Position numbers and translations under genes: made by a program
Notes under the pieces: model-generated
Seen by the model: only the letters and a program-made list of their open reading frames with translations
Database searches by the model: none
Told to the model about the DNA's origin: nothing
Shown: piece by piece, positions 8,114-46,837 of the stretch
Position numbering within the stretch: the stretch's first letter is position 1
How the letters are laid out: each line of letters opens with the position of its first letter
NCBI GenBank assembly: GCA_003134785.1
Contig: PLCN01000003.1
Coordinates: forward strand, 186,001 to 250,000
DNA length: 64,000 bases
From: Spartobacteria bacterium
GTDB lineage: Bacteria; Verrucomicrobiota; Verrucomicrobiia; Chthoniobacterales; UBA10450
Direction: 5' to 3'

Positions 8114-9319
8114 CTACCTGCTCAACTCGCGCAGCGGGCCCGCGTATCCGGTTAGTTCCAGATATCCGCGACCTTTGATCGCCCGGCCGTGTCGGGTTCC
8201 GCTCGCATCGATCGCGCCTTCCCAGTAGGTGATGGGCCCGAGCGCCAGCTCTTGATTTTCGACCGCCGCGCGGACTACAAACTCCGTCTGCTGGCCCGCG
8301 AGCGTTACGCGCCAACTGATCGGATATTTCGCTCCGCTCGCTTTGCTTTTCCAAAACGCGATCGGCGTCATCCGAAAATCGGAGCTGCGCAAATGCGTCG
8401 TCTCGCCGTTCTGCGCGATCCACGTTCCGCTCGAACTCGCGTCAGGCTCGCCATTTTCGAGCCGCATTTGGTAGAGCATTAACTCGGTCCCATCCTCCCA
8501 TTGCAGGCAGATCCAATCCCAACCGACCTGATTCTCCGCGAGCTGACCGCTGGCCCACTCGTGATCGAACCAACTCTCGCCCCGAAAAGGATGTGACTTT
8601 CCGTTCGCGAAAAATTCACCCGTCGTCTGCATTCGCGGGATCGAATAATAATGCGAGGCGTACCTGACGGCGGCGGCCTTGACGCTAATCCCGTTTTCTC
8701 CATGGACGACTGGAGGCTTCGTCGCGCGCAAATGAAGATGGATCGTGCCGGCCTCGCTCGAGGCCATCAGATCGAAGGCGTCGTCGCCGTTCGTGGCGAG
8801 AGTCCAGTTTTCGATCCAGGCCAGTCGCTTGCCGTCGTCGAAGCCTGCCTCACCGAAAGCTCCACGGCTGGTTTTTTGTTCGAAACGAAAGGTTTGTTTT
8901 GAAACGTCGGTGAGCGCGAAGTGGGCGAACTTCAGATCGTCGACGATAAAGCGCGACGACTTCGGATCTCGCTCAGCGAAGGGTGTGATTCCCTGACGGA
9001 AGAACGTCAGCTCGTAACCGAAGCGGTGGCCATCCGCGTCGAAGATATTTCCGGTGAAATACCACCACTCCGTCTTGAAATCGCGGTGCGCGTGGTGATC
9101 TCGCGGAAATTCATACCGCCAGCCCGGTTCCGCGATCTTCCAGTCCGCAGCGGCGCACAACGAAGCAAATAAGAGCAGCCCTGTAGCCGCCACCCTGCTT
9201 GCCACGCCGACGCAGGGCGGGTGGGCGGCGCACCTCAACCACCGCGCTTCGCACAGCGAAGCGGCTACAGTTCGCTCGTGCGGACGTGCGTTGAGGCGGA
9301 CGAAGAAGGTTCGTTTCAT
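8114..9319 (-). CDS. AttH-like secreted lipocalin-domain hydrolase (CrtC superfamily)
   Basis: About 401 residues from the ATG at 9319, whose ATGA overlaps the stop of the upstream permease; a longer in-frame start at 9364 is less likely. Residues after the leader show the AttH/COG5621 pattern: [37 protein letters not shown] and a C-terminal [16 protein letters not shown]. The fold is two lipocalin-like barrels as in carotenoid 1,2-hydratase CrtC; the substrate is unknown. The hydrophobic leader core [12 protein letters not shown] is separated from the MKRTFF start by 30 codons that coincide exactly with a palindromic element (9181-9270), so the real start may be internal. Co-occurrence with an FtsX-type permease mirrors att-type operons. 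Confidence 0.85.
9181..9270. repeat. 90-bp CTGTAG...CTACAG element inside a coding leader
   Basis: It begins CTGTAGCCGCC at 9181 and ends GCGGCTACAG at 9270. The terminal 28 bases (9243-9270) are identical to 34086-34113. Its length is a multiple of three and the reverse-strand frame stays open through it, adding about 30 residues ([10 protein letters not shown]...VASRVAAT) to the AttH-like leader. Confidence 0.75.
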
Positions 9320-11898
9320 TCGCTTCGCAAATTCTCCGCGAGAATCATTCGGCCGGCCCGCCATGCTGGCACGAGGCCGGCGACCAGCGCGGCGGCGACA
9401 ATCCAGAGCGGCGTGACCGCGAGTGAGCGCCAGGGAAATGCCAACCGAATGGTCCAGCCAAAAAACGCGCGATTAATCACGCCGGTCAGAACCAACGAAA
9501 GACAAACGCCGGAAGCCAGTCCAACCAAAGCCGCCAGCACTCCGATCATCGCGGTCTCCCAAAGCAAGAGTTTGCGGATCTGGCCCGCGCTCGCACCGAT
9601 CGCCCGCAGGACCGCAAGCTCGCGGGAACGTTCCGTGATCAAGATCGTAAGCGAGAGAAAAATTCCCGTGATCGCGACGATGACCGCGATGGTTAGCAGC
9701 ACATATGTCACCGCGAAAGTCTGATCGAAAATTTCGAAAATACGCACGCGCAACGATTGGTTCGAGAAAATGACGAATTCACCGTTCCGGCTGAATCCGG
9801 CGCGGAATGCTTTGCTCAACGCTTCCGCCGAAGCATTCTGCTTCAAATAGACCGCGACGCTGTTCACGCGGTCATCGTGCCAGAAGCGGATGAAGTTCCG
9901 TTCGCTCATGTAAGCGATTCCCTGGTCGCGCGTGTAGTCATAGAAAATTCCTGCGACAGAAAACTGGCCAGCGCCGTCGGGCGTAATCAGTTCGATCGAG
10001 TCGCCGTCGCGAAGATGATGATGGCGAGCGAAAGCTTCCGAAACCACGACGCAAACTTCGTCATGAAATCGGCGCATGATCGCGGCCCCGTTACCGCGCA
10101 CAAATTGAAAATGGCGCCGCTCGCTTCCGCGCACAACCGCGACCGCGATCGTCTCGGCGCCCATGGAAAGCTCGGCGTCGCGGAACGTATCGATCGTTTC
10201 GACCGCCGGGTGCGTTTCGAGGAAGTGCACCGCAGCCGGTGGAATGAAAGAGGACGGGCCGACGATTTCGTTTGAGGCCGGCGCGACGAAGAGATCCGCC
10301 ACCAAGGTGTCGTTGATCCATGCTTCAACGGTTCTGCGAAAAGAAAATACCATCACGCTTACGCCGACAGTCATCGCGACGGCAGCGGCCAGCGCGGCGA
10401 TGGTGACGGAGTTTCTCATGAGCGCGCGGGAGAGATTCGCGGCCGCGAGTTCTGCTTCCACCGCCGCTTTTCCCCGGTGACGGCGAAGTGCGCGGAAAAC
10501 CTTTCCAGCTCCGGCGCTGAAACGAAAGGCCAGTGGAGGGACCAGAAGGGAAAAGCTGGCGAGAACAAAAAACGCCGCGGCAAAACCAAGCCAGGGCGGA
10601 CCGGTGGAAAGCGCGAGAAAAGAAAAACTTCCGGCGAGGGCTAGGCAGAGCAAACCATTCCACCACCAGGTGGATGACGGGTTGAAGGCATTCCAAAGCG
10701 CCCCTTCTTGGAAAGAGCCGTGAAGAGCGCGGACGGGTTCCAAATTCGCGGCCGCTTGCGCCGGCAGCCACGCGGAAACGATCACCGACCCTAGACCAAT
10801 CGTTCCGGCGAAAGCAAAACTCCACGGTTCCAAGACGACCTGCTTTACATTCACGAGCACGTAAAGAGATGAAATCGTTTCCGCGACGGCGCCGGCGAGG
10901 AGCCGTGCGAGAAGCGTTCCTCCCACCAATCCAAGCACGACGCCAAATAATCCCAGCACGATCGCTTCTCCCAGAAAAAGGGCGCGGACCTCGAGTCGGG
11001 TCACGCCTAACGAACGGAGAATTCCGATTTCGTGGCGGCGTCGAGCGACCGAGGCGGAAACAGTGTTGTAGATAAGGAACATCCCCACGACGAGCGAAAC
11101 CAGACTCATCGCGCTGAGATTCAATTCGAAACCGCCCAGCATTTTGTCGACTTCTTCGGTCCGCTGAGCCGGCGCCGTCACCTTCGAGTCTTTCGGCAAA
11201 ACTTTCCGAAGTTCGGTCACCACGTTGTCCCGGTCGCGCGGGTTGGTCAGCCGCAACTGGATCGCGCTTAGTTCTCCGCGACGCCCGAATAATTCCTGGG
11301 CCCATCCGATATCCATCGCGGCGAAGTGCGAATCCAGAATCGGCGCGCCTTTGCTGCGAAGGATGAATCCGACGCGCAGGTTGTGATCGATCACGTTCAG
11401 CCGTGCGCGGATTTTATCTCCAGCTTTCAAATGATGCCGCGCCACAAATTCCTCCGAGAGCGCGATGGAGCCAGGCGGACCAAGCCATCGCAGGAGATCA
11501 AGCTCACCGGCGTCGAAACTTGCCGGATCGAAGGTTCGAAACGGCGCGTTCGTGAAAACGTCGATCCCCAGGATTTCGAGATATTCACTGGGAAAATCCG
11601 GAAACGTGACGAGACCGCGCACGATCGGAGTCGCCGCGGAAATTCCATTCGTTGCTGCAACCATCGGAAAAGATGTTTCCGGTAAATGCGGCGACGTGAC
11701 TTCCAGCTCTGCCTTTCCGGCGACGAGATCGACCGTCGCGGCGAACGCGCGATTGGCGCTGTGATTGGCGATCTGGGTCGCGAGATAAACCGCCACGCCA
11801 AGCGCGACGCTTAAGATATTTAGGAGAGCGAGAAGCGGATGGCTCCGCAGATGACGGAGAACGTGCCACCTGAAGATGCGAAAATATTGTGCCCTCAA
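9316..11898 (-). CDS. ABC transporter permease with two FtsX domains
   Basis: 860 residues. An N-terminal membrane helix ([20 protein letters not shown]) is followed by a large periplasmic MacB-type domain, then an FtsX block of three helices near residues 260-385 and a second block at the C terminus (residues 730-860, with [20 protein letters not shown] and [15 protein letters not shown]). The [14 protein letters not shown] loop is the coupling signature to an ATPase. The topology matches LolCE/AttFG-like single-chain permeases that move lipids or lipoproteins. No ATPase gene is adjacent, so the partner is encoded elsewhere. The gene starts 12 bases after the EamA gene and overlaps the AttH-like gene by 4 bases. 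Confidence 0.92.
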
Positions 11899-31138: not shown

Positions 31139-33595
31139 GTGATTGCCAATGTCCTCCAGGATTTGTCGTTTACCCTTCGAATCCTTCGCAGGTCGCCCGG
31201 ATTTACTCTCGCGGCTGTCTTAACTTTGGGAGTAGGGATCGGAATCAATGTCGCGATTTACAGTGTCGTCCACGCCGTCCTGCTGTCAGAGCTTCCTTAT
31301 CCCCAGCCCGATCGTCTGGTCGCGATTTCAGAAATAGCCGGAGGCTCTATCTGGCCTACCTCCTATCCCGACTACCTGGACTGGAGGGCGGCGCAACATT
31401 CCTTCGACGAAATCGCGGTCTCGCGGCGTGATGACTTCAACTTGACCGGCGACGCCGAACCCGAGCGCTTCTCCGGCTTGTTTGTCACGGCGAGTTACTT
31501 CCGCGTCCTCAAGGTTCCTCCTAAGTTAGGTCGCGGGTTCTTTGATGAAGAGGATTCCGCGGCCGGCGTCAATCCCGTTATCCTGAGCGAACACCTATGG
31601 CGCTCACGCTTCGGCGCCGATCCGGCCATCGTCGGGCGAAAGTTGATCTTGAATACGATAAGCTACGAGGTTATCGGCGTTGCCTCCGACAATCTTTCCA
31701 TCGTCCGGAATCCCGAGACCTCTCGCAACGCCCGGGGCGCGCGCAATTCCGATCTGTACGCACCATTCGGCTTCTATGCGAATCGGCCTTACATGCACGA
31801 CCGCAACAACCGGCTTGGATTTTATAGCATTGGCCGGTTGAAGCAGGGCGTTTCGATCGAACAGGCCGCAGCTGACCTTAAAGTTATTGCTCGCACCATG
31901 GAACTGAAATACCCCGCTTCCAATACCGATTGTGGCATCGCGGTTAGCTCGCTTCACGATAGCGTGATTGGAAAATATCGGGCGATGCTCTGGTTACTCG
32001 AGACGGCTGTCGCGCTCGTGCTTCTCATCACGTGCGCTAACATCGCCAACCTGCTGCTCGTCCGCACTACGGTAAGAGAAAAGGAAATCGCCGTGCGTGC
32101 AGCCTTGGGAGCTAGCAGAGGGAGAATCATCGCGCAGTTGCTGACCGAAAGCACAGTTCTTGCCTTCTTCGGTGGCGCACTTGGTTGCTTACTCGCTTTC
32201 TGGAGCAGAGATCTAATCATATCCTTGTCTCCTCATGATTTCCCCAGATTACAGGAAATCCGGTTGGACCTGCCTGTCTTCGCCTTTTGCGTACTCATTA
32301 CCCTTGGCGCGAGCCTCGTCTTCGGCTTGGGTCCGGCTTGGAGGCTGTCCAAGGCGGAGTTGAATACGGTATCGAAATCGTTTGGCGGCTCCCATCCGCA
32401 TCGAAGCCTGGGCCTGCTCATTGTCGGACAAGTTGCGTTCGCTTGCGTTCTCCTCACAGGCGCCGGCCTACTCACTCAGACCTTTCGAGCACTGGAAAAC
32501 GTTCCACTCGGATTCCATCCCAACCACCTACTCACGGTTGGAATCAAGCTGCCGGGGCTTAAGTATCACGAGCCGATCGATCAGGCGACCTTCTATCGGC
32601 ATTTGCTCGAAAAGATTCAAGCGCTGCCCAGCGTAAAGGCTGCCGCGATTGACGACGATGTGCCATTCAGTGGGTTTCGCGCGCAGGAAACCTTCGCCGT
32701 CGCAGGTCAACCAGAGCCGCGTCATGGCGAAGAGCCATCGGCAGAAACGCATTGCGTGTCGCCCGACTATTTCAGAACCATGGGAATCCCGATGTTGCGC
32801 GGACGAAGCTTTGGACCTGACGACGTTATAGCCAAGCCGCTCGTCATCGTGATCGATGATTACCTTGCCCAGAACTTTTTCCCCGGCCGCGACCCAATTG
32901 GCCAGCAACTCAACCAGCAACTTGATCCCGGGCAAACTGACCAGCCGAGAGCCCAGTATACGATAGTTGGTGTCGTTCCCAGTGTGAGACATGGAGAAGT
33001 AGCAATTGAGCCGAAGCTTCCGCAAATTTATTGGCCGGCCGCTCAATTCTCCAGCCTGCAGACGACTCTCCTCGTTCGCACTGAGGGTGATCCCATCGCG
33101 CTGTTACCTTCAGTTCGAACCGCTGTTCGCTCCATCGATTCGCAGTTGCCGATCTTCGCCACGCGCACCATGGATGACGCGGTCGCGGCAAGCGTTGCAA
33201 CGCAGCGCCTTTCCGCCTCGCTGATTGGCGGGTTCTCGATTCTGTCCTTGTTCCTCGCCGCGCTAGGTCTGTATGGAGTCCTTACCTATTCGGTTACGCA
33301 GCGGACCCGCGAGATAGGAATCCGGATCGCCCTAGGTTCGCCTCGAGCAAATATCTTCGGCCTGATCGTGCGCCGCGCCATGATCATGGTCGGACGAGGC
33401 ATTTTTGTCGGCATCGCCCTCGCCCTCAGCTGCGGCCCGTTGATTCAACACTTTGTCTATGGTGTCACGCCTCATGACACCATGACCATCGCCGGAGCGG
33501 CGATTCTCTTGGTGGGAATTGCGATCTTGGCTTGCTTGCTGCCGGCGCTCCGCGCCGTCCGCGTCGATCCGATGGTCGCCCTCCGGCAGGAATGA
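31139..33595 (+). CDS. Duplicated orphan MacB/FtsX-type permease (ADOP family), intact
   Basis: 818 residues from a GTG at 31139. N terminus VLQDLSFTLRILRRSPGFTL, then the first helix and a MacB_PCD periplasmic domain, an FtsX block (residues 275-400, with NIANLLLVRTTVREKEIAVR and ALGASRGRIIAQLLTES), a second PCD and a second FtsX block (TQRTREIGIRIALGS near 720). This double layout defines the duplicated orphan permeases abundant in Acidobacteria and Verrucomicrobia. No ATPase or PadR gene is adjacent. A second, frameshifted member lies at 39723-42160; in that copy the loop reads [10 protein letters not shown] where this one has SRGRIIAQLL. Confidence 0.92.
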   Translation: MIANVLQDLSFTLRILRRSPGFTLAAVLTLGVGIGINVAIYSVVHAVLLSELPYPQPDRLVAISEIAGGSIWPTSYPDYLDWRAAQHSFDEIAVSRRDDFNLTGDAEPERFSGLFVTASYFRVLKVPPKLGRGFFDEEDSAAGVNPVILSEHLWRSRFGADPAIVGRKLILNTISYEVIGVASDNLSIVRNPETSRNARGARNSDLYAPFGFYANRPYMHDRNNRLGFYSIGRLKQGVSIEQAAADLKVIARTMELKYPASNTDCGIAVSSLHDSVIGKYRAMLWLLETAVALVLLITCANIANLLLVRTTVREKEIAVRAALGASRGRIIAQLLTESTVLAFFGGALGCLLAFWSRDLIISLSPHDFPRLQEIRLDLPVFAFCVLITLGASLVFGLGPAWRLSKAELNTVSKSFGGSHPHRSLGLLIVGQVAFACVLLTGAGLLTQTFRALENVPLGFHPNHLLTVGIKLPGLKYHEPIDQATFYRHLLEKIQALPSVKAAAIDDDVPFSGFRAQETFAVAGQPEPRHGEEPSAETHCVSPDYFRTMGIPMLRGRSFGPDDVIAKPLVIVIDDYLAQNFFPGRDPIGQQLNQQLDPGQTDQPRAQYTIVGVVPSVRHGEVAIEPKLPQIYWPAAQFSSLQTTLLVRTEGDPIALLPSVRTAVRSIDSQLPIFATRTMDDAVAASVATQRLSASLIGGFSILSLFLAALGLYGVLTYSVTQRTREIGIRIALGSPRANIFGLIVRRAMIMVGRGIFVGIALALSCGPLIQHFVYGVTPHDTMTIAGAAILLVGIAILACLLPALRAVRVDPMVALRQE

Positions 33596-39665: not shown

Positions 39666-39722
39666 AGATATTTTTGAATCCAAAGCGCAGGCAGCATGCA
39701 TCTCATCTGGGAAACCGCGCAA

Positions 39723-42160
39723 ATGCAGACGCTTTTCCAGGATCTTCGCTATGGCTCGCGCCAGCTTCTTAAGCGTCCCGGTTTCACCTTTCTTGCCATC
39801 ATCTCGATGGCGCTCGGCATCGGCGCGAATACGGCAATCTTCAGCCTGGTCGATACCGTTCTGCTCCGTCCGCTGCCGGTTCGGAACGCGTCGGAACTCC
39901 AGGAGCTTTACGGCACGCTCCATAACGGCGCCGACATCACGATTCAATCCTATCTGAACTACAAAGATTATCGCGAACGAAATCAGGTTTTCTCCGGCGT
40001 GATTGCTTACCGGATCCTAGTTGCGAGCTTGAGCCACAACGGAAACAACGAACGCGTCTGGGGCACGGTCGTTTCCGGGAATTATTTCGACGTGCTCGGT
40101 ATCCCACTCGCGCTCGGCCGCGGCTTCCTGCCCGAGGAAGATCAGACGCCCAACTCGCATCCCGTTGCGGTCCTGAGCGATGCCTGCTGGCAAAAACGAT
40201 TTGCCGCCGATCCTTCTATTGTCGGCAAAACAGTTTCATTTAACAACGTCGCCTTCACGGTGATCGGCATTGCACCGAAAGGCTTCATCGGAACGGAAGT
40301 CGCCTACGCTCCCGAGATGTGGGTCCCGATGATGATGGGGCCAGTCATGGAACCGGGCAGCAAGTGGCTCGAACAACGCGACAGCGATAATCTTTTCGTG
40401 GTGGGCCGACTCAAGCCGGGCGTGACGAAAGCTCAGGCGGAATCTTCCCTCCAGGCGATCACGCTCCAGATGGCGAGCGAACATCCGACCGAACTGGCCG
40501 GTCGCGGCCTGAAATTGATTCCACCAGGATTATTCATTCCGGACATTCGGGATTCCGTCTTCGCCTTTGCGGCGGTGCTCACCGCGGTTGGCGCTCTGGT
40601 TTTGCTGCTGGCCTGCGTCAACCTAGCGAACTTGCTCCTGGCCCGCTCGACCGAACGCCGGAAGGAAATTGCGATCCGCCTCGCCGTCGGCGCGAGCCGA
40701 GGACGACTCGTTAGGCAATTGCTCACTGAGAGCGCGATGCTCTCTCTCCTCGGCGGAGCTTTCGGAGTTATGCTCGCGGCCTGGATCAATCACTTCGTCA
40801 CAACTATTAAGCTGCCTACCGATTTCGCGCTGGTCTTCGATCTGCGGATCGATTGGCGCGTCCTCTCTTTCACGTTGCTGCTTTCGCTCCTGACCGGACT
40901 CTTCTTCAGTTTGTTGCCGGCGCTCCAATCGTCGAAACTGAATTGGTCCCGGCGCTGAAAGACGAATCTTCCATGGCCGGTTTTCGCCGGTCGCGTTTGC
41001 GCAACGCGTTGGTGATCGCGCAAGTCGCTCTTTCGCTGGTCTTGCTTGTGAGCGCGGGATTGATCGTGCGCAGTTTACAGGCGGCGCAGCGCATGCGCCC
41101 GGGATTTAATCCGGAAAATGCCGTCGCGCTTTCGTTCGACGTGGGTTTGCAAGGTTACGACGAAGGGAAAGGACGCGCCTTTCAGAAACAAGTGCTCGAG
41201 CGCACAAGAGCGCTTGCCGGGGTCGAGTCGGCTGCGCTCACCGAGAATATTCCGCTCAGCCTCAACTATAATTCCACCACGATTTATCTGGAAGGACAAC
41301 CGACTGCGAGCAGTGCCAACCTGCCGCTAGCCATTCCCACTTCAGTCAGCCCGGAATATTTTCAGACCATGGGAATCGCTTTGCGCGGACGCGATTTTAC
41401 CGTCCAGGAAGACAAAACCGAATCGCGCGTAGCGATCGTGAACGAAACCTTCGCGCGCCGGTTTTTCCCGGGACAAGAGGCGATCGGCAAGCGTTTCAAT
41501 TTCAACGGCCCAGACAAACCGTTCTGGGAAATCATCGGCGTGTGCGGCGATGGGAAATACAACAGCTTGGGCGAGGACGCGAAGCCCGCGCTCTTCCGGC
41601 CGCAACTGCGCGATTACAACACGGCGGTGTCTTTGGTTGCGCGGAGCAAGGGCGACCCGCGGACCACGCTGGCCGCGATGCAGCAGGAAATGCGCAGCCT
41701 CGATCCGACATTGCCGCTCTATGAAGTAAAGACGCTGACCGAGCACATGAAGATTCCACTCTTTCCGGCGCGGATCGCGGCGGGCGCGTTGGGAAGTTTC
41801 GGCGTGCTCGCGCTGGTGCTGGCGGCGGTGGGGATTTATGGCGTGATGTCATACGTGGTCGCGGGGCGGACGCGCGAGATCGGGTTGCGCATGGCGCTCG
41901 GCGCGCAGCAGGGGAACGTGCGCGGGTTGATTTTGCGGCAGGGCATGACGCTCGCACTCATCGGTTCGATTATCGGGCTCGCAATCGCTTTCGCCGCGAC
42001 GCGATTATTGAAGAGCATTCTTTACGGCGTAAGCGCATCGGATCCGATGACGTTTGTCGGCGTTAGTTTCTTGCTCGGGGCGATCGCGCTCCTGGCGTGC
42101 TGGATTCCGGCGCGACGCGCAAGCCGTGTCGATCCGATGATCGCACTACGCGCGGAATGA
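39723..42160 (+). pseudogene. Duplicated orphan MacB/FtsX-type permease with one frameshift
   Basis: From ATG 39723 the frame covers the first PCD and FtsX block ([40 protein letters not shown]) and stops near 40958 after [11 protein letters not shown] second frame, open from before 40853, takes over with [20 protein letters not shown] and completes the second half to 42160 (RTREIGLRMALGAQQGNVRG, ending RASRVDPMIALRAE). Adding one A to the AAA near 40940 restores a continuous 812-residue protein. The total length is one base short of a multiple of three. Either a recent inactivation or a sequencing/assembly error in an intact gene. It contains one CTCGTTAGG word. Confidence 0.85.
40707..40715 (+). 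other. CTCGTTAGG word 5 (in the frameshifted permease)
   Basis: Read as CTC GTT AGG (Leu-Val-Arg) in [11 protein letters not shown] is a rare arginine codon here. The intact paralogue has a different sequence at this site. Confidence 0.7.
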
Positions 42161-42335: not shown

Positions 42336-43451
42336 CTACCGTTTTTCTGGTAGCGGACGCAGAATCAAATCGCCGTGCCAGTCCGGGTGTGCGACGCCGG
42401 CGCGATAGGCATCGAGCGATTCCACCGACGAATTCACTCTAAGATTGCTGTAGGTCTGGTCGGGATTCTGCCAGCGTTCGTGCCAGTAGATCGCAGCTTT
42501 GATTCGCGGATAGCGGGTCCGAAACATCTCCAGCGCCTGTGCGGTCCATTGTGGTTTGAGCATGCCGCGCTCATCGGCCGAGAATGGGAAATCGCCCGTG
42601 GCCCACTCCGCGATCATGATCGGCTTTTGCGGGTCGAGTCCGCACAATTCCGCGTAGGGCCAGTCGACCAGCGATGGAATGTCCGGATTTGGCTCGTCTT
42701 TGAACTGCTGGCCGTAGACGCTCATGCCGAGCCAATCCACATACTCCGGTCCCGGATAATACGCCGGCGCGAAATTCCAGGTATCGAGCGGATAGGAATA
42801 ATTGTTCGTGTGAAACATCCATTTGATGTTTGCGGCGCCCCGCGCGCGGACACGATCTACCACGTGACGATACGCTTTCTTGAAGTGCTCGGGCCCTTCC
42901 CATTGGTCGGGAGTGTCGCCAATCCATTCGTCGGCGCCGTAGAACCAGCCCGACCACGGGAACCAGTCGCCATTCATCTCGACTCCGAACGCAACGACCA
43001 TCGGCTTGCCGAACTCACGCGCTGCGTCCGCCCACTTATCGATGTAAGCGTCCCACTTTCCCTCGATGATCGCGTTGAGATTGAATTTATCCGGACCGCG
43101 ATTTTGCTCGTAAGGCCTATCCCATGGCGACCAAAAGACCAGCGGCATCGAGCCGTGACGCCAGATGACATTAAGGTTTGCGGTCGGAAAACTTTGCTCA
43201 CCCCAATAGCTCGACGACGCGATGATCGCCTGATGTTTGCCGACCATCGTCTCGAACTCCTCGATCGTCTCCAGCGTGACTTCATCCTCCGCGTCGCCGA
43301 AATCCATGAACGCGCCGGTGTAGGCGCCGCGCTCTGGAAGCAAGACTTCTACCGGCGCGTTCGGATCGGGCGCGGCATTTTTCTTCACCGGTTTGCAACC
43401 AAACCCGCCGCAGCTCAGGACGATCGCGGCAAGAACAGAAACCCACTTCAC
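42336..43451 (-). CDS. GH26-like glycoside hydrolase lipoprotein
   Basis: 371 residues from GTG 43451, which overlaps the stop of the upstream gene by four bases (GTGA). The N terminus VKWVSVLAAIVLSCGGFGCK is a lipoprotein signal with Cys at the lipobox. The catalytic acid in VVAFGVEMNGDWFPWSGWFY and the nucleophile in PIMIAEWATGDFP match family 26 mannanase-type clan-A hydrolases. It should sit in the periplasm or outer membrane and cut a polysaccharide, most simply the product of the coupled glycosyltransferase fusion. Confidence 0.85.
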   Translation of the reverse strand: MKWVSVLAAIVLSCGGFGCKPVKKNAAPDPNAPVEVLLPERGAYTGAFMDFGDAEDEVTLETIEEFETMVGKHQAIIASSSYWGEQSFPTANLNVIWRHGSMPLVFWSPWDRPYEQNRGPDKFNLNAIIEGKWDAYIDKWADAAREFGKPMVVAFGVEMNGDWFPWSGWFYGADEWIGDTPDQWEGPEHFKKAYRHVVDRVRARGAANIKWMFHTNNYSYPLDTWNFAPAYYPGPEYVDWLGMSVYGQQFKDEPNPDIPSLVDWPYAELCGLDPQKPIMIAEWATGDFPFSADERGMLKPQWTAQALEMFRTRYPRIKAAIYWHERWQNPDQTYSNLRVNSSVESLDAYRAGVAHPDWHGDLILRPLPEKR

Positions 43452-46400
43452 GCGCGCATCGGCACGGACGCCGTTCGTTCCAATTTCCCCCAGCTGACGA
43501 AGGCGCCTTTCACCGCGCGCAGGATCGCTTTCCAAATCACGTAGCTCAACATCGGCCGGTAAATCAGCCGCATCGGCAAAATTCGCCAGGCCCGCCACAC
43601 CGATTCGCGTTCCAGAATGCAGGCCAGCGTCGCCAGCACCACGTCCATGCTGAGAAAGGCGATGACGAACGGCAGCACCGCGCGCCAGGCGCCAAACGGA
43701 AGCGACGCCAGCAGGAAAAGATCAACCATTGGCGTGATCGCGACGAGGATGATTTGGAAAAACCAAACGCTCGGCAAACTGAACCAGCCCAGCGCGCGGT
43801 AACGCCAGTTGAAGATCATGTCGCGATGTTTCCAAAGACATTGCAGCGTCCCATACGCCCAGCGAAAACGCTGACGGGCGAGCGTGCCCACTGTCTCCGG
43901 CGCTTCCGTCCACGCGATCGCTTCGGGCACATAGACGATGCGCTGGCCGCATTTGTGCAAAGACAAAGTCAGGTCGGTGTCTTCGGCCAGCGTCTCGAGA
44001 CTGAGGCCGCCGGCATCGTCGATGGCCGATTTTCGCATCGCGCTGATCGCGCCCGGAACTACCGTGATGCAATTCCACCGCGTGTAAGCGCGCCGATCGA
44101 GATTGAAGCCGCAGGTGTATTCGAGCGCCTGACATTTCGCGATGAAGCTCCGGAGATTTCCGACCTTCGCGTGCCCCGACACCGCCCCGACTCCAGCATC
44201 CGAGAAAGGCTGGACCAGACGCCGGAGCGTGTCGCGCTGGCAATGCGTATCCGCATCGAGAAAAACCACGATGCCGGTGCGCATCGCGGCCAGACCACGT
44301 TGAAGTGCGCGCGCTTTCCCCCGATTTTCCTGACGCAATAAACGAACCCGCGGATCGTTCACGGCAATTGATTCGACTTCGGCGGCGGTCTGATCCTGCG
44401 AGCCGTCATCGACGACGATCACTTCCAACTCGCCGGCGTAATCTGTCGCGAGAACAGCAGCCAGCGTCTTCATGATGACTTTCTCTTCATTGAACGCAGC
44501 CACGATCACGCTGATCGGTTCGGCAAAATCTCCCGACCAGGTGCGGCGGAAACGCGACGCCAGCCAAATGACCGTGAGGGTTCGCAGCACCACCAGCGCC
44601 GTGGCCACGATCATGAAGGCCCAAAGAAATTCTTCGGCCGCGTGAAAAATCCGGAAGCCGGCCCCGCTGACAAAATGGCTGAGCGACCGCCCCTTCGTAT
44701 CGACTGGAGGCATTAATGCATCGCGTGTCGTGCCCAGGAGGGTGCCGAGCGATACGACAGAATCCCCGCGCGTCTTGAGGTAGTCGAGAATGCGCGGCAG
44801 CGCTTCCACAGTTTGCTCGCGATCGCCACCGGCGTCGTGCAGCAAAATAATACTGCCGTCGTGCCGTTGCTGTTTCACCCGTTGCACGATGATGTCGGCT
44901 CCCGGTTGCGCCCAATCTTGCGGATCGATGTTTTCGAGAACCACGAGGTAGCCGAGTTCCTGCGCGATATTCAACGGAGCCAGCTCGCTGATTTTCGATG
45001 GGCTGGTGTCCGCGGCGTAAGGCGGCCTGAATAGTGTCGTGGCGCGGCCGGTGATGGTCTCGAGCAGGAGCTGCGTCGCATTCAGTTCGAGGCGCACATG
45101 CTCCGGCCAGCACTCCGCGAGATTCGGATGGTAATAGGTGTGGTTCCCAATTTCGTGGCCTTCCGCCACGATCCGCCTAACGAGTCCTGGATATTGCTCC
45201 GCGTTTGCGCCCACGAGAAAAAACGCTGCCTTCACGTTGGCCGCTTTCAAGATGTCGAGAATTTTCGGGGTCCATTCCGGATCGGGCCCGTCGTCAAAGG
45301 TCAGGGCGACCTGATGCGGCGCACCCGCGCCCTGATGGTAGAGCGTCGGAAATTGCGGAAACTTCGAATATGTCGCGGTCAGGTAGCCGTCCTGATCCAC
45401 CGCGAGAGTGCGGTTACCGTCCGATTGAGTTTCATCGACCGAAACGATTTCGCCCTCGCCCACATCGGCAATCGTGTCCGTGCCGCGCAGGACTTCGAGG
45501 AGAGAACGCGACGCATCATCCAATTTGAAATCGCGCGGGACACCGAGCGCGTCCCAGATCGAAACATCCTCCGTCCCGAGCCGATAGATCGCGAACCCGC
45601 CGGCCTTCGCATCGCGGACGGCGCGCAGTTGATTCAGGAACGTGACCACATCGAGAAACCAAACCGAGTGATCCTTGTCCGCGTCCTCGTAATAAAAATA
45701 CGGATTGTAGTGCGGCGCGTTGATGGTCACGCCCGCGACCTCGGCATAGCTCGCGCGGCTCATCGCTTCGGGAAAACTGATCAGCTCCGCCTTCTTCGCA
45801 CCGCCGGTCCAATCATAACCATAGCTGCCGAGCGCGATGATCCATTGCTTGGTCTCCGCGCCGTCCATCAACACCTTGAGCCATCCTTCAAACCACTGGC
45901 GGGAACCCAACGGACCTGCGGGATCGATGTCGGACGTTTCGTCGAAAAGCAACGCGACAAAGCGGTCCACATTATCGGATAGCTCCTCGAAATCGATGTA
46001 ATCGAGATCCTGACCAGGCTGCACACAAAGCCAGAGCTGCTTGTCGTCGTAGTGCAACGCGTCAGTGAAACGGTCGAGGAACGCCGTGATATCTTTTTTG
46101 TAAGCGGGATCAAGCTGTTCCCAATCGATCACCACGCCGGCAGCTTTCGCGTCGTTCAAAACCGCGAGGACCTTCTGGATGAAACGGTCCTGTGTCTCCT
46201 TCGAGCTGTGCGCGAGATTCTCCACCGCTTCAGGCTGCCACGTGTCGCCCACGAGATTCGTCAGCAGCGGCATCAAGGCGAACCCTTTGCTCGCCGCGAG
46301 TTTCGGCAGGCGATTGTCGGCATCGATCTGCAAATCGCCGGATCCGTTCGTCATCGCCATCCACTCGGGACAAACGTGCGTGATCTGACTGGCGTGTTCT

Positions 46401-46837
46401 TCGAGCGAGCTAAAGCTGTAGGGATCGCCGTTCGTGTAAAAGGCGAGCCGCACTTCGTTGTTCTGTGATTTCTTTCGCGGGTGCGCTGGCGGCGACGGTG
46501 CTGGCCCCGGAGGCTTCTTCGCCGCGAGGCGCGAGGCGGCAAATTTTTGCCAGAGCGCCAGATTCACTGGCGGCTGCCCGGCCGGATTTACTTTTTGCAG
46601 GGATTTCAGCTGCCCCTTTAATTGGCGGAGCGAGAAAGGAAGACTGAGCTGCGGCGCAACAAAGAGGGTTTGAACGAACAAGACCGCGCCGAGGAAAACC
46701 AAGACTCCTCCGATGAGCAGGAAAAGGCGAAGGCGCGGCCAGCGCTTCCCGGCTGGGTCCGAGAAGACGAAAGGGGTGACGGTATGGGGAGATTCCTCTT
46801 CCATCTTTGCGAGCGTTAACCTTCGCTCCTCAACCAA
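43448..46837 (-). CDS. Fusion of GH18-like hydrolase, polysaccharide deacetylase and GT2 synthase
   Basis: 1129 residues. One membrane helix near 30-55 (LFLLIGGVLVFLGAVLFVQT), then a GH18-like barrel at about 140-450 with the catalytic AAGVVIDWEQLDP. A NodB-type CE4 deacetylase follows at about 515-710 (VALTFDDGPDPEWTP, metal His pair in GHEIGNHTYYHP, RPPYAAD). After a helix at 755-775, the GT2 domain has VIVAAFNEEK, VIVVDDGSQDQ, FLDADTH, EDTDL and RQRFRWAYGTLQ (Q/RxxRW), then more helices to the C terminus. This is a single-chain synthase plus processing unit resembling PgaB and PgaC joined, so the product may be a partly deacetylated amino-sugar polymer. One CTCGTTAGG word is inside. Confidence 0.92.
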   Translation of the reverse strand: MVEERRLTLAKMEEESPHTVTPFVFSDPAGKRWPRLRLFLLIGGVLVFLGAVLFVQTLFVAPQLSLPFSLRQLKGQLKSLQKVNPAGQPPVNLALWQKFAASRLAAKKPPGPAPSPPAHPRKKSQNNEVRLAFYTNGDPYSFSSLEEHASQITHVCPEWMAMTNGSGDLQIDADNRLPKLAASKGFALMPLLTNLVGDTWQPEAVENLAHSSKETQDRFIQKVLAVLNDAKAAGVVIDWEQLDPAYKKDITAFLDRFTDALHYDDKQLWLCVQPGQDLDYIDFEELSDNVDRFVALLFDETSDIDPAGPLGSRQWFEGWLKVLMDGAETKQWIIALGSYGYDWTGGAKKAELISFPEAMSRASYAEVAGVTINAPHYNPYFYYEDADKDHSVWFLDVVTFLNQLRAVRDAKAGGFAIYRLGTEDVSIWDALGVPRDFKLDDASRSLLEVLRGTDTIADVGEGEIVSVDETQSDGNRTLAVDQDGYLTATYSKFPQFPTLYHQGAGAPHQVALTFDDGPDPEWTPKILDILKAANVKAAFFLVGANAEQYPGLVRRIVAEGHEIGNHTYYHPNLAECWPEHVRLELNATQLLLETITGRATTLFRPPYAADTSPSKISELAPLNIAQELGYLVVLENIDPQDWAQPGADIIVQRVKQQRHDGSIILLHDAGGDREQTVEALPRILDYLKTRGDSVVSLGTLLGTTRDALMPPVDTKGRSLSHFVSGAGFRIFHAAEEFLWAFMIVATALVVLRTLTVIWLASRFRRTWSGDFAEPISVIVAAFNEEKVIMKTLAAVLATDYAGELEVIVVDDGSQDQTAAEVESIAVNDPRVRLLRQENRGKARALQRGLAAMRTGIVVFLDADTHCQRDTLRRLVQPFSDAGVGAVSGHAKVGNLRSFIAKCQALEYTCGFNLDRRAYTRWNCITVVPGAISAMRKSAIDDAGGLSLETLAEDTDLTLSLHKCGQRIVYVPEAIAWTEAPETVGTLARQRFRWAYGTLQCLWKHRDMIFNWRYRALGWFSLPSVWFFQIILVAITPMVDLFLLASLPFGAWRAVLPFVIAFLSMDVVLATLACILERESVWRAWRILPMRLIYRPMLSYVIWKAILRAVKGAFVSWGKLERTASVPMRA
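45176..45184 (-). other. CTCGTTAGG word 7 (in the GH18-CE4-GT2 fusion)
   Basis: Read as CTC GTT AGG in PGLVRRIVAEG of the deacetylase domain; the next arginine uses CGG, showing AGG is not forced by the protein. Confidence 0.7.

Follow-up and report, generated by a model that had tools for sequence, protein, structure and literature searches.

A GH18-CE4-GT2 fusion synthase in Verrucomicrobiota paired with a GH26-family gene: which of the two cuts the chain?

Why do exopolysaccharide synthases keep a hydrolase at hand, and which protein does the cutting where two candidates lie side by side? A contig of a Spartobacteria bacterium (PLCN01000003.1, assembly GCA_003134785.1) raises this question. 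We analysed a stretch of 64,000 nucleotides of its forward strand (positions 186,001 to 250,000; hereafter the window), in which one gene encodes a GH18-like barrel, a CE4 deacetylase and a GT2 glycosyltransferase in a single chain, and the next gene, of family GH26, starts within the stop codon of this fusion. The sequence-only reading of the locus had proposed a compact system that makes, de-acetylates and trims an amino-sugar polymer. Comparison with relatives bore out the synthase, the deacetylase and the gene pair, and spoke against the built-in barrel as a working hydrolase. Of barrel and partner, the GH26 protein is the likelier one to do the cutting. The fuller reading that we prefer, in which the fusion is an inner-membrane synthase and deacetylase of an N-acetylglucosamine (GlcNAc)-type polymer, cutting has been handed to the GH26 protein and the barrel serves as a scaffold or binding domain, is one that we hold with evenly divided confidence.

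The gene pair is conserved. Among 384 genomes of the class, the fusion was found in 62 (69 matches minus seven single-domain ones, sorted by hand) and a close GH26 homologue in 61; both were present in 60 genomes and neither in 321, corresponding to a Fisher p of about 1e-66 that ignores kinship. The fusion stood alone in G496 and in the 73%-complete G436, the GH26 gene alone in G327. By a hand count of coordinates, 51 of the 60 pairs were adjacent on one strand, three lay at a contig edge and six were apart. The two genes share a strand and often overlap. A separate draw of 240 genomes from the phylum gave the same picture, with fusion and GH26 in the same five genomes. On a tree inferred from CE4 and GT2 alignment columns, two changes accounted for the GH26 label, and its bearers formed one clade of 71 rows, where the window's relatives include Candidatus Udaeobacter (L048). 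Outside this clade, none of 39 whole-searched genomes of fusion carriers held a GH26 orthologue, the nearest being one weak match of 29% identity. Given the co-occurrence across the 384 genomes, we reject the idea that the GH26 gene is a chance neighbour, and the pairing, rather than the already known fusion, is what looks new here.

We then compared the catalytic residues of the three domains across the fusions. Eight CE4 positions were identical in all 144 fusions, and nine GT2 positions in all 143 gap-free rows; a tenth, D810, was Asn in nine. By contrast, the GH18 site has decayed. The window copy retains the Asp-x-Glu pair at the end of strand 4 (D238 and E240), but Phe298 and Tyr418 replace the Tyr and Trp seen in most homologues outside the clade, so that the site reads D, E, F, Y. 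These two positions align with a Tyr and a Trp in SleL and 4wiw and are presumably the Tyr of strand 6 and the Trp of strand 8 in the GH18 sugar site, with catalytic roles. Across the fusions, D238 was kept in 129 of 141 rows and E240 in 99 of 141, and most clade members also have other residues in place of Tyr298 and Trp418. None of the 69 gap-free clade rows has the complete set of four, so that every such relative lacks at least one; outside, 74 of 88 rows have it. Rows dropped for a gap in GH18 were L227 and L233 in the clade and L093 outside, and eight repeats of the same locus were dropped as well; the 69 include four clade rows with no known adjoining GH26 gene (L047, L048, L150 and L229). 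Loss of catalytic residues, which could have extended to a second domain, was confined to the barrel.

The decay was also concentrated in the clade. When the GH18 columns were left out of tree building and losses were taken as irreversible, the FastTree tree implied 13 losses of D or E in the clade and two outside it; for quick IQ-TREE the counts were 10 and two. Given the branch lengths, the excess in the clade had p = 0.0008 and 0.006, respectively. On the other hand, the barrel residues N194, G234, D342, D396 and D424 were each present in 40 of 40 rows lacking D or E. An active site that decays while other barrel residues stay fixed suggests that the barrel is kept, but probably not for cutting.

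Coordinates are collected in Table 1. The presence of GH18-like, CE4 and GT2 domains in one chain, as originally proposed, was confirmed by Pfam profiles with curated cut-offs, all four domains of the pair scoring above them, and by the structure model with its Foldseek matches. Homologue alignments begin at Met12, which makes the ATG at 46802-46804 a likelier start than the listed TTG at 46837. In the window copy, the Asp, His and Arg motif residues of CE4 are in place (eight positions intact), and the synthase and deacetylase both keep their catalytic residues. The AlphaFold2 model of the fusion, based on 74 homologues, had a mean predicted local distance difference test (pLDDT) score of 89.4 and showed helix 21-47, two domains placed as periplasmic, a long helix 707-750, GT2 and C-terminal helices (counting starts at Met12). 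In Foldseek, the GH18 part matched SleL, CE4 the Bc1960 deacetylase and GT2 hyaluronan synthase; SleL/YaaH is the nearest solved relative of the barrel. Model and hydropathy together suggest that GH18 and CE4 occupy a periplasmic loop between two helices that precede GT2.

Table 1. Coordinates of the fusion gene, its GH26 partner and related loci. Fusion residues are numbered on the 1129-residue TTG reading frame and structure-model helices from Met12; GH26 residues follow a query that starts one codon early (43454), which leaves the matches unaffected.
Feature	Position	Strand	Remarks
GH26-family gene with signal sequence, plausibly a lipoprotein	42336..43451	-	Pfam 43.8 bits, cut-off 20.2
GH26 nucleophile Glu codon	42606..42608	-	E283 of query, IAEW
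GH26 acid/base Glu codon	42978..42980	-	E159 of query, GVEMNG
GTGA overlap, 4 bases	43448..43451	-	GH26 start GTG 43451-43449 over fusion stop TGA 43450-43448
Listed fusion open reading frame	43448-46837	-	TTG start, 1129 codons
GH18-CE4-GT2 fusion gene	43448..46804	-	1118 amino acids counted from ATG
C-terminal transmembrane segments	43613..43762	-	Residues 1026-1075; hydropathy and model
GT2 processive glycosyltransferase domain	43850..44518	-	Pfam 774-996, 126.5 bits; DDG, DxD, ED, QRxRW
Second transmembrane segment, between CE4 and GT2	44552..44641	-	Residues 733-762; hydropathy and model
CE4 (NodB-type) deacetylase domain	44738..45319	-	Pfam match 507-630, 126 bits; catalytic residues intact
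GH18-like barrel	45575..46438	-	Residues 134-421; Pfam 47.1 bits, cut-off 29.6
D238-x-E240 codons, GH18-like site	46118..46126	-	Intact in window copy, lost in many relatives
N-terminal transmembrane helix	46670..46726	-	Residues 38-56 by hydropathy; model helix 21-47
DUF3131 gene, Rhodobacterales	L275:10015-12552
DUF3131 gene, Rhodobacterales	L276:9505-12021
DUF3131 gene, Rhodobacterales	L277:10210-12540
DUF3131 gene, Rhodobacterales	L044:9000-11489
DUF3131 gene, Rhodobacterales	L271:8506-11091
Locus of fusion with decayed GH18, Poly_export gene and stand-alone GH18 gene, another alphaproteobacterium (genome G795)	L272:4804-7495	-

The partner had been called a GH26-like lipoprotein. Profile, fold and two glutamates upheld the family: all 57 pair members have both E159 and E283, and in an earlier set that included eight distant paralogues the two were present in 43 of 43 and 41 of 41 gap-free rows. 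The structure model (pLDDT 91.2) was closest to the Clostridium thermocellum lichenase Lic26A (2bv9, 2cip), a plant-glucan enzyme with which it shares the GH26 fold over the domain (Z 35.4, root-mean-square deviation 2.1 A over 279 residues, 30% identity); GH26 mannanases came next, with Z of about 26-27. Unlike Lic26A, the window protein is associated with a synthase. That it is a lipoprotein is plausible, as judged from a lipobox-like VLSC near the N-terminus (LLAC in a close relative). A simple lipobox pattern was found in 24 of 57 homologues, many of whose rows were cropped, and the others looked merely secreted or undecided.

These features suggest the following mechanism. The cytoplasmic GT2 domain would polymerise an activated sugar, most likely uridine diphosphate-GlcNAc, and thread the chain through its own membrane helices. 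The GH18-like barrel and CE4 would meet the emerging chain in the periplasm, where CE4 would strip acetyl groups. In most phyla, chain cutting could also fall to the GH18 barrel, while in the window's Verrucomicrobiota clade this step may have passed to the secreted GH26 protein encoded by the overlapping next gene, the barrel staying on as a scaffold or chain-binding domain. Because GH26 enzymes use their own glutamate nucleophile and need no N-acetyl group of the substrate, the partner could cut deacetylated stretches.

Four other explanations have to be weighed against this one. All the enzymes may work, as the sequence-only reading had it, with the barrel and the GH26 protein cutting at separate sites or in stretches that differ in acetylation. 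The D238 and E240 of the window copy fit this, and SleL-type GH18 enzymes likewise have a short DxE motif; nevertheless, the replacement of Y298 and W418, the absence of any clade row with all four residues and the repeated loss of D or E in the clade make it unlikely in our view. The decay might instead reflect lower constraint in fast-evolving lineages of metagenome-assembled genomes (MAGs), with no hand-over of cutting. GH18 was indeed the least conserved domain in all groups, with mean identities of 35-48% versus 51-65% for CE4 and GT2. However, the barrel scaffold residues were fixed in the very rows that had lost D or E, and losses per branch length were higher inside the clade, so we consider this explanation rather improbable. 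It is very improbable that the GH26 protein is an independent catabolic enzyme that merely sits next door. GH26 enzymes are usually plant-polysaccharide hydrolases, and the six separated pairs would agree with independence, but 60 of the 62 fusion genomes co-carry the gene, only one genome has it alone, and its shared strand and frequent overlap with the fusion argue the same way.

The polymer itself may not be an amino-sugar polymer: GT2 could make a beta-glucan or similar hexan, CE4 could remove O-acetyl groups and a lichenase-like GH26 could cut the product. The closeness of the partner to Lic26A in both fold and sequence, the resemblance of GT2 to cellulose and hyaluronan synthases as well, and one CE4 match named acetylxylan esterase are all in line with this. 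Against it, the best sequence matches of CE4 are GlcNAc deacetylases, with a peptidoglycan GlcNAc deacetylase at the top; the best NCBIfam model for GT2 is PgaC/IcaA (180.8 bits), followed by NodC (109.2 bits); and at one alphaproteobacterial locus (L272, described below) a chitinase-type stand-alone GH18 occupies the position of the GH26 gene. In addition, the CE4-GT2 protein MatB makes poly-N-acetylglucosamine (PNAG; PMC5972031; this and the other papers cited by PMC number are quoted from partial text). The GT2 model, the CE4 matches and the GH18 neighbour in L272 lead us to favour a polymer of GlcNAc type that is cut once deacetylated, and we give the beta-glucan alternative a small but real chance.

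A number of observations weigh against a hand-over of cutting on a GlcNAc-type polymer, however. The GT2 score lies below the equivalog cut-off of the PgaC/IcaA model (TIGR03937; 180.8 versus 422.3), so the sugar is not fixed by it, and the best match of the GH26 protein is an enzyme of beta-glucan. The window barrel still has its D and E, six pairs of the class are not adjacent, and G496 has a fusion with E240Q and intact CE4 and GT2 but no GH26 gene at all. Decay also occurs elsewhere: five Bacteroidia copies (L104, L110, L114, L119 and L263) carry an E-to-D change and three Gemmatimonadota copies (L097, L109 and L111) a Tyr-to-Phe change, all without a known partner. Of three such Bacteroidia copies that we examined, only L110 lay near a hydrolase, a converging GH3 gene. 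Since the 80 loci retained from a GTDB scan were its top matches, the outside set leans towards well-kept GH18 copies; in a less biased draw of Alphaproteobacteria the site was lost in two of six, both among the partner-bearing cases. Finally, the PgaB hydrolase cuts without GH18, GH20 or GH13 motifs (PMC5933820), so the absence of such motifs is no proof of inactivity.

The partner-bearing cases outside Verrucomicrobiota deserve a closer look. In five of five Rhodobacterales fusions examined, all without the D-x-E pair, the next downstream gene encodes a DUF3131 protein of about 780-860 amino acids, and in L275 and L276 it overlaps the fusion by 4 bases. Pfam records no function for DUF3131, no solved relative was found by sequence, and the N-terminal half had no Pfam match in the three proteins scanned. 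We regard it as a candidate polysaccharide-processing partner. In L272, from another alphaproteobacterium, a fusion with a decayed GH18 site is followed on the same strand by a Wza-like Poly_export gene and by a separate GH18 gene with the full motif FDGIDIDWE; these neighbours possibly hint at an export route for the fusion family. More tentatively still, cutting may have been outsourced at least three times, to GH26 in Verrucomicrobiota, to DUF3131 in Rhodobacterales and to a stand-alone GH18 with an exporter in L272, with the barrel turning into a non-catalytic guide. Cutting the deacetylated product, the GH26 protein would then be the first member of family GH26 that we know to act on an amino-sugar polymer, and DUF3131 would represent a new family in polysaccharide processing. 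We think that this wider scheme is possible, though on balance doubtful.

As a control, we inspected the genes downstream of 67 GH18-intact fusions outside the clade. Nine had too little downstream DNA, leaving 58 usable loci, of which 21 had a qualifying gene (same strand, at least 150 amino acids, within 300 bases). According to Pfam, none of these 21 genes is a glycoside hydrolase (five match no Pfam family, and some of those may be spurious open reading frames); at L064 the gene is Poly_export. Nor was a glycoside hydrolase among the 25 commonest of the 135 families represented in 112 downstream genes. A converging gene annotated "chitinase" beside a Kocuria CE4-GT2 gene matches no Pfam family and was not counted. 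We also observed that an MprF-like lysyl-phosphatidylglycerol synthase gene follows the fusion in Sphingobium (L041:9102-12444) and in a member of the Gemmatimonadota (L083:2973-5525); L041 also has a VirJ-like hydrolase, and related genes recur near other Sphingomonas fusions.

Regarding export from the window's own host, no outer-membrane exporter gene adjoins the fusion, in agreement with the sequence-only reading. Within the genome, the best match to the PgaA porin reached 49.2 bits against a cut-off of 366.65, a distant porin still being possible, and the C-terminal hydrolase domain of PgaB (GHL13) gave no match, with E. coli as a positive control.

The fusion itself is widespread, contrary to the novelty that had been implied for it. 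A GTDB scan returned 581 relatives; the best 80, which were kept, came from Verrucomicrobia, Desulfobulbus and other delta-type MAGs, Acidobacteria, Bacillus, Sphingomonas, Bacteroidetes, Gemmatimonadetes and one cyanobacterium. One Bacteroidota class had it in 10 of 198 genomes, and one alphaproteobacterial draw in 6 of 289 (a seventh match was a single domain). Among PLSDB plasmids, 19 records with at least 80% coverage hold full-length homologues, from Sphingobium, Novosphingobium, Prevotella, Deinococcus and Sulfitobacter; records of Sphingobium, Prevotella, Deinococcus and Sulfitobacter name the protein "glycosyltransferase". Recurrence of the same three-domain order in many phyla puts the fusion far beyond chance. 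A table of 2012 already prints GH18-CE4-GT2 for the Acetivibrio cellulolyticus protein ZP_09465738 (PMC3413522), which together with the wide distribution rules out a new architecture. In the literature searched, which left subscription journals largely uncovered, we found no functional study of a three-domain protein of this kind, and for a GH26 gene adjoining such a synthase only a GH26 in a Wzx/Wzy cluster (PMC13390465, partial text).

How does the pair compare with known systems? Other GH18-CE4-GT2 proteins share the domains, their order and the full length, Acetivibrio by its printed architecture only (PMC3413522); outside the clade they had no GH26 partner in the records and genomes checked, and their GH18 site is mostly canonical. 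The nearest characterised relative is Streptomyces MatB, a CE4-GT2 protein needed for PNAG (PMC5972031), whose two domains are joined in one chain by a transmembrane helix as in the window fusion. It differs in having no GH18 domain, a monoderm host and MatA as a partner, and the available text describes no GH26. A Streptomyces CE4-GT2 protein fell among the fusions in the GT2 tree, weakly supported; the CE4 tree was too poorly resolved and was not used. PgaABCD and IcaADBC likewise bring a synthase, a CE4 deacetylase and, in Pga, a hydrolase to one polymer (PMC5933820), but as separate proteins, and the PgaB hydrolase belongs to GH153 and is located after CE4. GT-CE4 fusions are found in Gram-negative pgaB-like clades without pgaA (PMC7112194). 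They too join transferase and deacetylase with no detectable PgaA or PgaD, but the transferase is fused N-terminally, and neither GH26 nor GH18 decay is described in the text available. A precedent for one hydrolase family replacing another beside a synthase is given by BcsZ (GH8) and CcsZ (GH5) of cellulose systems (PMC7710045), although the synthase there is that of cellulose and, so far as the partial text goes, no built-in hydrolase decays.

Our preferred reading, with cutting handed to the GH26 protein, predicts which gene cuts in a synthase family that is widespread and seems not to have been characterised, and within this family intact and decayed GH18 barrels form a natural series on one scaffold. 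The reading would point to the kind of substrate used by a GH26 subfamily and by DUF3131, and it bears on the reason for having a hydrolase beside a synthase. It also hints that soil Verrucomicrobiota related to Candidatus Udaeobacter, which are hard to grow, have a surface polymer.

Several minor observations concern the pair and its surroundings. Three MAG contigs titled Desulfobulbus or Deltaproteobacteria (L053, L055 and L067) carry the pair and lie inside the Verrucomicrobia clade, owing to either transfer or mis-binning. One genome has two tandem fusion genes, each with its own GH26 gene (L207, G274:C46). The window genome encodes a second GH26 paralogue of 34% identity with no adjoining fusion (L142, G000:C3:176280-177089), and counterparts of this distant paralogue exist in G013 and G166. 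Elsewhere in the window, a MacB/FtsX-type permease at 39696-42160 on the plus strand is split into overlapping open reading frames in different frames (39696-40958 and 40853-42160), both with MacB_PCD and FtsX domains, as the result of a frameshift, a pseudogene or a sequencing error; unsplit permeases of this type lie at 31139-33595 (818 amino acids) and 9316-11898 (860 amino acids).

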